From Paenibacillus pinihumi DSM 23905 = JCM 16419 (GTDB taxonomy: Bacteria; Bacillota; Bacilli; Paenibacillales; Paenibacillaceae): a stretch of 64,000 nucleotides of DNA. Location of the stretch: assembly GCF_000422505.1 (NCBI RefSeq), contig NZ_KE383864.1, forward strand, positions 602,381 to 666,380, read 5' to 3'. The notes under the pieces were generated by a model. It saw only the letters and a program-made list of their open reading frames with translations, was not told where the DNA came from and ran no database searches. Positions 14,503 through 19,965 of this stretch are shown here, piece after piece. The stretch's first letter is position 1, and the number at the start of each line of letters is the position of its first letter. The position numbers and the translations under genes are program-made.

Positions 14503-14940
14503 TTATTTCCGCTTGCGGCTATTCTTGATCAAGGTCATCCGTCTGGAATGGCGAAGCCAGGAATAGTACGATTTCAGGTCCCTTAATTCGATTGTCTCGG
14601 ACATGCGCCCCAGGAATGTGACCACGATCATTTTGTGCAAAGGATTGCCAATTAAATCGGTTTCACCTTCCAGTACAGCGAATTCAGCTACGAACACCAA
14701 GTCCTCATCAATGAGGTAGACATCCTCTTCATTCCTGTAGTAAGGCTGCACCCGCCCCTGTTTCAAGCTTTGCCAAATGAAGTCGGCAATATCCTCGAAG
14801 CCGGTTTTCTCGCTTTCGATACGGTCTGCCCAACGGATTTTGGCATGGTTCGTGATGACGACATCTGCAACTTTTTTATCACCAAGCACGATATGAAATG
14901 ACTCGTAAGTATTCCATCTTTCGGTCGTTTTGTCTTTCAT
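14503..14940 (-). CDS. Uncharacterised protein, 145 aa
   Basis: Not recognised with confidence. It is a soluble, mixed alpha/beta protein without membrane segments, ending in a basic tail (RRMTLIKNSRKRK). The pattern VVITNHAKIRWADRI, a helix with FIWQSLKQG, and paired strands ending in IVVTFLG recalls the compact fold of DUF4258/RelE-like proteins, but this is only an impression and no partner antitoxin is next to it. The ATG at 14940 has GGGGAGGAG upstream. A good promoter lies at 14999-15026 and a Fur-box-like sequence further upstream. It is monocistronic with its own terminator. Confidence 0.7.
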   Translation of the reverse strand: MKDKTTERWNTYESFHIVLGDKKVADVVITNHAKIRWADRIESEKTGFEDIADFIWQSLKQGRVQPYYRNEEDVYLIDEDLVFVAEFAVLEGETDLIGNPLHKMIVVTFLGRMSETIELRDLKSYYSWLRHSRRMTLIKNSRKRK

Positions 14941-14998
14941 CTCGAATCCACTCCTCCCCGGAAAGCAGCCCTTTTCTTTATAAAAATAGTTACTACAT

Positions 14999-15026
14999 AT
15001 TCTACCATGCCTAAGCAAGATTTCAA
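14999..15026 (-). promoter_or_regulatory. Promoter of the 145-aa hypothetical gene
   Basis: On the minus strand TTGAAA, 16 nt, TAGAAT, ending about 60 nt before the start codon. A second TATAAT lies upstream next to the Fur-like box at 15055. Confidence 0.65.
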
Positions 15027-16300: not shown

Positions 16301-18289
16301 TCATTCCTCCGCCACCGGGACAATCAGACGCATCTCCTGCCACATTTCCGGATGGAGCGAGATTTCCAACGGCTCGGCTTCACTCTCCTGCTTCATCCAG
16401 CCTTCGACCCGCCAGCTGCCATCCGCATCATGCAAACGTGATGGGATAAAGGACAATGTGGAGTTGCCCGTGCGCAGTTCGACTGCCGTATGCAGATCAA
16501 GCGCCTGCTCCAGCATTTCGCGCTTGGTGGATGCGTGATAAGCCCGAAACTGGCGTGTCCATGATGCCGGAAGCCGGTTTAACGCTTCATGCGCCGGCGT
16601 ATGCTCCGGAACCTCGGTACGCAGTGTAAAATGTTTCAGCCCAACCGGATCATAGAACAGCTCTGCTGAAGGCTTATCCGCCTGCGTACGGGATGAGCGG
16701 GATTTATTCCGCCCCTTTCCTGCAGGCTCAGGCTGCACAGATGGCTGTGGCTTATCCGCATAACAGCCGATCCGCTCCAGTTTTTTCAGCAGACTGTCCA
16801 GATGCTGCACTTCTATGACAAACGCCCGGTCACCAAGACGCTCACCCAGCAGCCCCTGCAGCGGCTGTTCGGCAGCAAGCTGGTCAGCAATCCCGATGTC
16901 AGCGCAGCGCAGCAGCGTCATCTGCTCGACGGAGACACTGCCCGCTTGCCGGGACCATTGCCTAATGAGTGAAGCCACATTATCCGGAACCACATCACCT
17001 GAAGCGTCTTGCAGAAATTGCAGCAGCCCTTCTCCTGTCCAGCCCTTATTTACCGCTCCGGCAACCGCCCCCTGCGTCATCCGGTATACCGTGACAACTC
17101 CGGTCTGCGCATTCTCCGCCACTTCCTCCAGCATCCACCGGACATGGTAAGAAATATCCTGCGCGGCTATGATTTCACAATCCGGCTGGACATAAATTCT
17201 TCCCGGCTCCGTCTTTGGGCGTTCTCCCCCTCTATCAGGGGCCCTCCAGCGAAAAACAGGTGTGCCGTCCTTTAGCTTGCCCTGCTCCAGCCATCCGCAG
17301 GCCTGAAAGATCCGCAAGCAGCAATTGAGCCCCTCTGAAGCAGATGGGGACTGCTGGTCCGATGCGGGACCGCAAAGCACCACATCGGCAAGCCAGGCAG
17401 CGGCATCACTCACAGCGTACCATTTGAACGGCTTCACATAGAGCAGTGCTGCAGAAGGAAAGGCCAGCGAAGGATCGGCAGTCATGTACCGGCTGACAAA
17501 TAAAGCCGCAAGCTCAGTTTCCCTTTGCTCAGCAGACAATTCCAGCCACATCCCGCCTGTCTCCGTGTTCCATACATAACCGTTCTCTTCCTCCCGCAGC
17601 AGCCCCTGTGACAACGCCAGATCAAGCAGAAGGGCTACCGGTTTGGGGTACTCATCCCGATAGGCAAATGCCGCCGCCCAGCCTTCCAGCCCTGCTTCAT
17701 TCATCGATAATCGAGCTGCAGCCTTGCTGATCACCTTCTTGGGCAAAACTCCATTGGCATTAAACTGCATTCCGGCCGTTACCATTGTCCGCAGCCCGCC
17801 CAGGATCTGCATACTAAGCGGTGCTTGGTCCGCCCCTTCCCGGCCCTCCATCTGACGTACCTGCTCTCTGGCAAGAGGTATCGGGCAGAACGGGAACAAG
17901 GCGTGCAGCCAGGCTCCAAAGGCATCTCCCGGCAAAAAGAAAAGTTCATCCCCCCACGATTTGCGTACCGCAAACACAATACCCGCCTGTCTAAGTTCTA
18001 CCAGTCCCTGTATCAGCTCTGCGCCTGACCATCGCCCCTGAAGACGACCCAGCACGCGCAGTCTCTCCTCGTCAAAAGGAAGCGGGCCAAATTTGCGAAG
18101 CACCAGTTCCAGCAGGCCGCGCGCTCTTGCAGAAAGCTTCTCCGCCGCTCCTGCAAGTACAGTGCTGTCCAATTGGGCGCTTCGCCAGTCAAGCCGGCGG
18201 ACAGCCGCTTCCTCCCACACCGGATGGCTGTCAATCCATTCATTCAAAGCCGGTTCGCCAAAGCGCGAAGCAATTTCCGCCGTTCTCAT
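16301..18289 (-). CDS. Helicase-associated protein paired with XPB
   Basis: 662-aa protein translated from an ATGA overlap with the XPB helicase gene; AAAGGCGG precedes the ATG at 18289. It has no Walker motifs. It resembles the large helicase-associated proteins encoded beside XPB in mycobacteria and some Firmicutes. A charged low-complexity segment (about residues 540-560, GKGRNKSRSSRTQADK) splits a long N-terminal part from a C-terminal part that looks like the XPB N-terminal/damage-recognition-related region. Role: presumably a partner or regulator of the helicase in DNA repair. Not studied biochemically as far as I know. Confidence 0.75.
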   Translation of the reverse strand: MRTAEIASRFGEPALNEWIDSHPVWEEAAVRRLDWRSAQLDSTVLAGAAEKLSARARGLLELVLRKFGPLPFDEERLRVLGRLQGRWSGAELIQGLVELRQAGIVFAVRKSWGDELFFLPGDAFGAWLHALFPFCPIPLAREQVRQMEGREGADQAPLSMQILGGLRTMVTAGMQFNANGVLPKKVISKAAARLSMNEAGLEGWAAAFAYRDEYPKPVALLLDLALSQGLLREEENGYVWNTETGGMWLELSAEQRETELAALFVSRYMTADPSLAFPSAALLYVKPFKWYAVSDAAAWLADVVLCGPASDQQSPSASEGLNCCLRIFQACGWLEQGKLKDGTPVFRWRAPDRGGERPKTEPGRIYVQPDCEIIAAQDISYHVRWMLEEVAENAQTGVVTVYRMTQGAVAGAVNKGWTGEGLLQFLQDASGDVVPDNVASLIRQWSRQAGSVSVEQMTLLRCADIGIADQLAAEQPLQGLLGERLGDRAFVIEVQHLDSLLKKLERIGCYADKPQPSVQPEPAGKGRNKSRSSRTQADKPSAELFYDPVGLKHFTLRTEVPEHTPAHEALNRLPASWTRQFRAYHASTKREMLEQALDLHTAVELRTGNSTLSFIPSRLHDADGSWRVEGWMKQESEAEPLEISLHPEMWQEMRLIVPVAEE

Positions 18290-19965
18290 GTCACTACCGC
18301 CTTTCCCGATTCTGCCTCGCCGTCCCATATTTCAAGCTCATATGAATAACCCTGCTCAATCATAAACATTTGCCGCTTGAGGGCAAATTCAGTCTCCTTT
18401 GTGCCGTCTGTTACCAGGCTGTAGAAGTGCGCTTCATTGCTTCCGGCCTTGGGCCGCAATATACGTCCTGTCCGCTGCGCTTCCTCCTGTCTGGAGCCAA
18501 AACTGCCCGACACCTGAATGGCGACCGAAGCATCCGGCAGATTGACGGCAAAATTGGCCACCTTGGACACAACAAGCACCGGAAGCTTCCCTTGCCTGAA
18601 CCGCTCAAACAAAAGTTCCCTTTCATGATGTGGCGTGCTTCCGGTCAGCAGAGGCACGCCAAGCCGCAAGGACAGCTGCTCCAATTGATTCAGGTATTGC
18701 CCAATAATTAAAATCTGCTGCCCGGCATGACGCTCCATCAGTTCCATAATGACCTCAAGTTTGAGCGGATTTTCACTCGCCAGACGCTGCTTGCCCCTTG
18801 GCTCCGCCTTGTAATACCGTTCCCGGCTTGCTTCCGCAAGCGGAACGCGAATCTCCACACAAGACAAGGAGGCGATCCAGCCCTTGCTCTCAAGTGTTTT
18901 CCATGGCAGATCAAACTGCTTGGGGCCGATTAACGAGAACACATCCTCCTCGCGCCCGTCCTCGCGGACAAGCGTTGCGGTCAGTCCCATTCTCCGCGTC
19001 GTCTGAATTTCGGCCGTCATCCGGAATACCGGGGCAGGGAGCAAATGAACCTCATCGTAAATAATCAGGCCCCAGTTCCGTTCACTGAACAGCTTCATAT
19101 GCACATACTCATCTTTCTTGGCTCCGCGGTGCGTCATAATTTGATAAGTTGCAATTGTAACGGGACGCACTTCCCGCAGCTCCCCCGCATATTCCCCGAT
19201 ATCACTTTCCTTAAGAGTAGTCTTGTCCAGCAGCTCTTTCTTCCACTGCTTCACCGAGATCACATTTGACGTTAAAATCAGTGTCGCGCATTTCAGCTCG
19301 GCAAGCGCTGCCAGCCCGACGACAGTCTTCCCTGCTCCGCAAGGCAGAACCAGCACACCGCTGCCGCCCTGTACGCTGCCCTCTTTGTAAAACAATTCAA
19401 CCGCCCGCAACTGATAGTCCCTTAATGCCAGCCCCCGGGTGTCCACCTGCAACTGCTCTCCGGTATGATAGCCAGCCAAATCCAGCACCGGATAGCCGAT
19501 GCGGATCAGCTCCTGCTTGAGCCGGCCGCGATGGGCAGGACGGATTTCCCATGCGCACCCGGATACCGGAGCAATCAGGCTGTCACGAACCGCAGGCTTT
19601 TCGGCCAAATTCTCCAGCACCTTTGGATCATTCCCCACCAGCAGCATCTTTCCGTCCCGCTGCTCCAGACGCAACTGTCCGTAACGCGCAGCCCAATCCG
19701 CGATGCCTGTCTCCACCTGGAACGGCAGTTCAAAACGGTTATGCTGCTCCAGCGCATCGAGTATTTCATCTGCTGACACGCCTGCAGCCGCTGCGTTCCA
19801 TACGGACAGCGGGGTTATCCGGTACGTATGCAAATCCCCCGGCCGTTTGATCAAATCAGCAAAACGGGCAAGCTGTTCGGCCGCCTGCTCTCCTTGGGGA
19901 TGCCGCTTGTCCAGCAAGACTGTATAGTCCGGCTGTACGATTATGGCACCTGATTGGTATGTCAA
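18286..19965 (-). CDS. XPB/Rad25-type DNA helicase
   Basis: 559-aa superfamily 2 helicase of the XPB type. The N-terminal region (1-170) carries a damage-recognition-like domain; ATPase motifs follow: LRDYQLRAVE (Q-like), Walker A PCGAGKT (208-214), DEVH (304-307), GLTATLVREDGRE with the RED motif (334-336) that marks XPB proteins, and the C-terminal QRTGRILRPK motif VI. XPB is the 3'-5' translocase of eukaryotic TFIIH; bacterial forms are found in actinobacteria and some Firmicutes and have DNA-dependent ATPase and unwinding activity. The start is TTG with AAAGGA 8-9 nt upstream. It is coupled to the gene at 16301. Confidence 0.92.
   Translation of the reverse strand: MTYQSGAIIVQPDYTVLLDKRHPQGEQAAEQLARFADLIKRPGDLHTYRITPLSVWNAAAAGVSADEILDALEQHNRFELPFQVETGIADWAARYGQLRLEQRDGKMLLVGNDPKVLENLAEKPAVRDSLIAPVSGCAWEIRPAHRGRLKQELIRIGYPVLDLAGYHTGEQLQVDTRGLALRDYQLRAVELFYKEGSVQGGSGVLVLPCGAGKTVVGLAALAELKCATLILTSNVISVKQWKKELLDKTTLKESDIGEYAGELREVRPVTIATYQIMTHRGAKKDEYVHMKLFSERNWGLIIYDEVHLLPAPVFRMTAEIQTTRRMGLTATLVREDGREEDVFSLIGPKQFDLPWKTLESKGWIASLSCVEIRVPLAEASRERYYKAEPRGKQRLASENPLKLEVIMELMERHAGQQILIIGQYLNQLEQLSLRLGVPLLTGSTPHHERELLFERFRQGKLPVLVVSKVANFAVNLPDASVAIQVSGSFGSRQEEAQRTGRILRPKAGSNEAHFYSLVTDGTKETEFALKRQMFMIEQGYSYELEIWDGEAESGKAVVT

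Follow-up and report, generated by a model that had tools for sequence, protein, structure and literature searches.

The 64,000-nucleotide stretch of the Paenibacillus pinihumi genome considered here (the window, to whose positions all coordinates refer unless a genome or locus is named) raises the question of what kind of protein accompanies a bacterial XPB helicase. On its minus strand a gene for an XPB-type helicase (18286..19965) runs into one for a large partner of 662 residues (16301..18289). The sequence-only reading of the window had singled out this pair by the RED motif of the helicase, an ATGA overlap between the genes and the lack of Walker motifs in the partner, all of which our motif scan and coordinates confirm; the span of 16301-19965 that it assigned to the pair is an exact fit. 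Its statement that the function of the partner is undescribed can be improved upon, as the protein is p52-like. We consider it quite probable that XPB and its partner together form the prokaryotic equivalent, in two subunits, of the TFIIH module made up of XPB and p52, furnished in some Bacilli with a WYL-like addition.

Homologous clutch domains in XPB and its partner

The helicase (559 residues) starts with a TTG preceded by AAAGGA, contains PF13625, ResIII and ERCC3_RAD25_C domains, and scores 818.9 bits against the NCBIfam equivalog of bacterial XPB (NF045503), exceeding its cut-off of 610. A motif scan recovered the Walker A motif GAGKT (residue 210; 19324..19338), DEVH (304), TAT (329), the RED motif (334; 18958..18966), embedded in GLTATLVRED, and QEEAQRTGR (493). 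To judge from its sequence, it is a plain, canonical member of the bacterial XPB family. Its stop codon TGA shares the ATGA at 18286..18289 with the ATG of the partner, for which an alternative start at 18328 is also open and would yield 675 residues. A pattern scan of the 662 residues revealed neither Walker-type GK[ST] nor DExD/H patterns, and the sole Pfam match of the partner is PF13625 (residues 366-485, E 3.2e-18). This family, common to the partner and the N-terminal (clutch) domain of XPB (residues 8-130; 19576..19944; E 5.5e-34), had been missed by the earlier reading.

The partner alignment, A4, comprises the window protein and 27 partners drawn from 49 loci with a partner; L047, L053, L054 and L060 were left out of 30 loci by hand, and L033 denotes the protein of the window. 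Among the other alignments, A2 is A1 without L058 (a wrong-strand frame) and L062 (a truncated row), and A8 consists of the 20 rows of A7 minus L063 and L105. When a profile of 28 partner clutch domains (A6) was compared with one of the 28 XPB N-terminal domains of the same genomes (A9), hhalign gave a probability of 99.8% and an E-value of 6.1e-29 over 149 columns; the clutch domains of XPB and its partner are homologous. The N-terminal domain of XPB in human TFIIH and the clutch of p52 are reported to share a fold of four helices and five strands and to form a pseudo-symmetric dimer (PMC6422496). Residues 365-461 of the partner model likewise show four helices and five strands, and because this is the fold published for both TFIIH domains, it counts in favour of a p52 relationship.

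Searches against PDB sequences pointed in the same direction. The whole-partner profile (28 partners) retrieved p52 (TFIIH subunit 4) at 1e-6, Tfb2 of 6trs at 2e-6 and the XPB N-terminal domain at 7e-7, and the partner-clutch profile retrieved p52 at 9e-7 (32.3 bits) and XPB with 37.2 bits. In contrast, the XPB N-terminal profile from the same 28 genomes found XPB at 3.6e-20 (75.7 bits) and p52 merely at 0.85 (12.8 bits). On account of this contrast, eukaryotic XPB groups with prokaryotic XPB, while p52 lies nearer the partner. Pfam Tfb2 (PF03849) was the second most matched family of the 28 partners (6/28, best 6.7e-4), and a Chloroflexi partner matched it at 6.9e-5.

The structure predicted for the partner by AlphaFold2 from the 28 sequences of A4 (predicted local distance difference test, pLDDT, 88.4; predicted template modelling score, pTM, 0.80) was compared with the PDB using Foldseek. 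All 38 chains found at E<=1e-3 belong to TFIIH, namely 22 of p52/Tfb2 and 16 of XPB (8ebt_D, 7o4i_2 and 6trs were named through the profile search, the others being judged from entry and length), and winged-helix proteins other than TFIIH were absent at that threshold. Chains of p52/Tfb2 occupy ranks 1-19, the best with an E-value of 7.6e-12 over about 500 columns, as against 3.4e-6 for the best match to the XPB N-terminal domain. In the model, residues 1-358 (17216..18289) form three helix-helix-helix-strand-strand units that are winged-helix-like, followed by the clutch and a post-clutch lobe (residues 362-512; 16754..17206) and a C-terminal WYL-like domain (residues 540-662; 16304..16672). 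The predicted structure of the partner thus looks like that of p52.

Several results weigh against this relationship. Sequence diversity is greater in the partner profile than in that of XPB (effective number of sequences, Neff, 6.0 vs 3.8), which may help the match to p52. The sequence profile of the N-terminal region alone gave weak helix-turn-helix matches and did not find p52, so that this region failed as a stand-alone sequence proof of homology, and a clutch profile extended by it scored no higher against p52 (30.7 vs 32.3 bits). No partner tested reached the Pfam Tfb2 cut-off of 34.5 bits, the best attaining 22.4, and in the Pfam scan the window partner had no PF03849 match. Residue E310 of p52, reported to be necessary for holding XPB (PMC9557730), aligns with the Q of a VQPD motif in the partner family, by hand count in the profile alignment. 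A search for p8/Tfb5 found none in the genome, but as it drew no match in the control either, it tells neither for nor against p52. Finally, superposition on p52 yields low TM-scores, of 0.16-0.25 when normalised by query length and 0.21-0.42 by target, with root-mean-square deviations of 12-21 A. Flexibly linked domains can produce such low TM-scores and high deviations; given these values, the domain arrangement is unproven as a match to p52. Because the N-terminal region finds no p52 and the partners tested fall short of the Tfb2 cut-off, we call the partner p52-like and keep it out of the Tfb2 family.

Linked inheritance of XPB and its partner

The sequence-only reading had suggested a survey of gene neighbourhoods, and had named relatives regularly devoid of the partner gene as the outcome that would tell against it. 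In a set of 58 genomes, made up of the genome itself and others of the same genus, family and order, the outcome was the opposite: 53 have both genes, five have neither and none has one alone. XPB exceeds the cut-off in 51 of the 53 and is in two pieces in G002 and G019. The five genomes without both genes belong to five different families, three of which also hold genomes with both. Each of the 53, the P. pinihumi genome among them, has its partner match on the contig and strand of XPB and downstream of it, which makes the pairing more than chance. A distance of 27-341 bases separates the match ends in 48 of these genomes, and one of 624-1536 in five with a partial partner match; a 4-base start/stop overlap was present in 13 of the 31 XPB-then-partner loci examined among the 49 with a partner. 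The two divided XPBs (G002:C83:142409-146167 and G019:C54:3754-7509) probably reflect frameshifts or decay, and in G002 the partner is also in pieces.

At the level of the phylum (n=199), XPB and PF13625 occur in the same 16 genomes, the partner in 15 of these, and PF13625 in none of the 183 others (Fisher p 1e-21, kinship ignored; three of the 16 are also among the 58). PF13625 was also counted, without a separate count of XPB, in two further phyla. In that of a Streptomyces genome it was found in 18/149 genomes, with at least two matches in 17 of the 18, the best two of which are in every case no more than 5 kb apart; in that of a Thorarchaeota genome it was found in 26/119, with at least two matches in 25.

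A wider survey with the XPB profile over named genomes confirmed at least 589 places, of which the best 80 were considered. These 80 include Paenibacillus, Brevibacillus, Planctomycetes, Chloroflexi, Spirochaetes, Actinobacteria, Nostoc and Thorarchaeota. A partner lies within the locus in 49 of the 80. Of the 31 others, 21 are from genomes with a second PF13625 protein on another contig, and the A4 profile, run on 13 of the 31 genomes, recovered full-length partners in three more Brevibacillus (E 5e-88 to 2e-91) and, next to the XPB of L109, a partner fragment where the contig ends. Altogether a partner was found for 74 of the best 80 loci, in 24 of them on another contig; where the XPB contigs are short, linkage cannot be read from them. 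The impression that the partner is regularly missing in Brevibacillus and spirochaetes was mostly rejected, with partners on other contigs or as a fragment and six of the 31 loci still without one. In all four Brevibacillus genomes the partner lies well away from XPB, and because partners also occur in such positions, the pairing is independent of gene order. The sequence-only reading had cited a similar large protein beside XPB in mycobacteria; among the loci surveyed here, those of Corynebacterium, Agreia, Agromyces, Subtercola and Streptomyces have such a gene on the upstream side of XPB.

Speaking against a constant pairing are those six loci, in genomes where no partner was found: two of Brachyspira, of which one is a metagenome bin, and four further bins of this kind. 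One of the six genomes, G265, gave an unclear 90-residue match at 1.9e-5. To these are added G062, with a divergent XPB (397 bits) and no partner found by PF13625, and the archaeal G543 (G543:C148:4749-5006), which has a partner-like PF13625 protein alone (a frame of 585 residues) with no second match and may be incomplete. For seven XPBs whose locus has no partner, L109 with its fragment among them, the neighbouring genes were scanned. Those of the other six, namely an ECF sigma factor, an AddB-like protein, UvrD, a glycosyl hydrolase domain, UbiA and four family-less proteins, were ruled out by Pfam as alternative partners, and two groups of them by profile comparison as well.

The survey also brought to light variant arrangements. 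The partners of L088, L111 and L125 (Chloroflexi) and of L089, L092 and L133 (Planctomycetes) have two tandem clutch domains, and in the three Chloroflexi loci two adjacent partner genes follow XPB. A protein of 372-374 residues in Brevibacillus and a same-family genome (L190:435-1553, minus strand; L191:178-1302, plus strand) resembles the partner N-terminal region only, lacking the clutch and the WYL-like domain and having no convincing Pfam match. In a Hydrogenedentes bin (L082:7650-13657, plus strand) the XPB frame overlaps an AddB-like frame, with a UvrD/AddA-like frame next, and L086 has a similar layout, judged by gene size only. In the Brevibacillus locus L073 (7643-9701, plus strand) the genes after XPB encode an ECF sigma factor and a 487-residue protein without a Pfam match, which looks like the anti-sigma factor of that neighbour. 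In the window itself, the pair is surrounded by YlbF-like, DUF2129, CBS and FtsW-type genes. Neither Pfam nor NCBIfam gave a match at E<=1 for an open reading frame of 171 residues at 14503-15018 (minus strand), and a promoter and terminator scan gave nothing useful.

A WYL-like domain and the candidate role of the pair

The C-terminal domain of the window partner is predicted to consist of a helix followed by five strands (pLDDT 84.8), and the first 24 Foldseek ranks are all WYL proteins, including PafBC, DriD, BrxR and CapW. The E-values, which count against this assignment, are weak (best 5.2e-3, none <=1e-3), and Pfam gives the domain no match; when 20 C-terminal pieces were compared with Pfam, no WYL family came up even at E<=10. 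A profile of the domain matches partners of Paenibacillus, Cohnella, Thermobacillus and kin, Caldalkalibacillus, all four Brevibacillus and one more genome of the same phylum (L163), with no match in the other loci searched (L063-L142, L158-L176); several partners of the same phylum are without it. The domain weakly resembles, in the model, the WYL domains that bind single-stranded DNA. Such binding is reported for the WYL domain of PafBC (PMC11804915) and for the C-terminal WYL domain of some bacterial Pif1 helicases, where it matters for helicase activity (PMC9964779); by analogy, the partner domain may bind single-stranded DNA too.

In TFIIH, p52 together with p8 is reported to bind the N-terminal region and the second RecA domain of XPB, and to both stimulate and limit its ATPase (PMC7708078). 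By analogy, a physical complex of XPB and its partner is likely. XPB would act as an ATP-driven translocase on duplex DNA, and the clutch of the partner would bind the homologous N-terminal domain of XPB in a pseudo-symmetric dimer of two PF13625 domains, with the winged-helix-like region and the post-clutch lobe holding and positioning the motor. The partner may thereby control the ATPase of XPB, raising or restraining it as p52 does. The WYL-like domain of this genome and other Bacilli would probably contact single-stranded DNA at the opened site, and could report or hold the opened strands. The likely task of the pair would be the opening of DNA at lesions during repair, a role favoured because of known XPB biology and the overlap of XPB with AddB-like and UvrD/AddA-like genes in L082. 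The repair or fork-remodelling complex of the earlier reading thus stands in part: homology with XPB-p52 makes a complex likely, and fork remodelling has no specific support.

Among the competing explanations, the most probable one holds that the clutch alone is shared. The partner would then be a regulatory or DNA-binding protein that has acquired the type of N-terminal domain seen in XPB but whose winged helices are unrelated to those of p52, and it would either bind XPB or simply be encoded in the same operon. The sequence resembles p52 in the clutch only, winged helices are common, and the 372-374-residue relative of the N-terminal part exists without a clutch. We nevertheless regard this as unlikely, since the structural match to p52 extends over some 500 columns and is far stronger than that to the XPB N-terminal domain, no other winged-helix proteins appear at 1e-3, and prokaryotic XPB is more distant from the clutch of p52 than the partner is. 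A transcription-side role, in which the pair aids RNA polymerase, could draw on the functions of TFIIH in promoter opening and transcription-coupled repair and on reports that the WYL activators PafBC and DriD act on RNA polymerase; the gene overlaps of L082 favour repair instead, and we hold this role to be somewhat less probable still.

Two other proposals appear very improbable. A helicase-nuclease pair modelled on archaeal XPB-Bax1, which the sequence-only reading had invoked, would account for the constant pairing, as reported for Bax1 in archaea (PMC13024598). However, the partner has no match to Bax1 or to any nuclease family in Pfam and NCBIfam, its model matches p52 and XPB chains only at E<=1e-3, and Bax1 is absent from the genome and present in just 2/14 other partner-bearing genomes tested. 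With no family match and no Walker motif, the partner was rejected as a nuclease, as Bax1 and as a second helicase. A phage-defence pair, to which we attach equally little probability, is suggested by remote helicase-domain matches of XPB to PADLOC models (PbeA, 7.1e-25) and by the WYL domains of the defence-linked regulators BrxR and CapW; against it stand the lack of a PADLOC match for the partner, the ordinary gene surroundings, and the retention or loss of the pair as a unit in the 58 genomes.

Beyond the identification of the pair as a counterpart of XPB-p52, we give even chances to a broader proposition: that the XPB-p52 module is not a eukaryotic invention, many bacterial phyla and Asgard carrying XPB with a p52 orthologue that clamps and gates the motor, and that in many Bacilli a WYL-like single-strand sensor couples this motor to opened or damaged DNA.

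Comparison with known systems

p52 has been published as not found in bacteria; in the open-access PMC literature, subscription papers and preprints being outside this scope, we found no report of a bacterial p52. Of six papers there that mention Rv0862c, the mycobacterial neighbour of XPB, none has a title pointing to its function. If a p52-like regulator is indeed present in bacteria and Asgard, biochemical work on bacterial XPB should be repeated in the presence of the partner, the switch formed by XPB and p52 can be studied in a model of only two proteins, and prokaryotes become a place to follow how TFIIH arose.

The archaeal XPB-Bax1 system resembles the pair in joining XPB to a dedicated partner, but the window partner is not Bax1 (DUF790, PF05626), its Pfam match being PF13625 only. 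With the WYL proteins (PafBC, DriD, CapW, BrxR and Pif1 with a C-terminal WYL) it would share the predicted fold of its C-terminal domain, a helix and five strands; unlike them, its domain lacks a Pfam WYL match and any match at E<=1e-3, and is fused to a p52-like protein. In Asgard and Theionarchaea a family termed fam18955 has been described as TFIIH-like and distantly RAD25-like, lying in Asgard beside RFC (small-subunit) genes (PMC9258230). The Thorarchaeota partner genes of L107, L116 and L130 are likewise placed, divergently, beside an RFC-like gene. As both adjoin RFC genes, fam18955 may be the same family, seen previously without recognition of its p52-like nature; it was presented there as distantly RAD25-like and not as p52.

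As for XPB/ERCC3/Rad25, the window helicase is a plain bacterial XPB in which nothing unusual was seen, and its N-terminal domain is reported to be present in other bacterial XPBs too (PMC3353954). From p52/Tfb2 (GTF2H4), the partner differs in falling below the Pfam Tfb2 cut-off, in not keeping E310 and in its extra C-terminal WYL-like domain. Like p52, it is linked to XPB, has a clutch homologous to the XPB N-terminal domain and, in the model, a winged-helix-like region before that clutch, and finds in p52 its best structural match.

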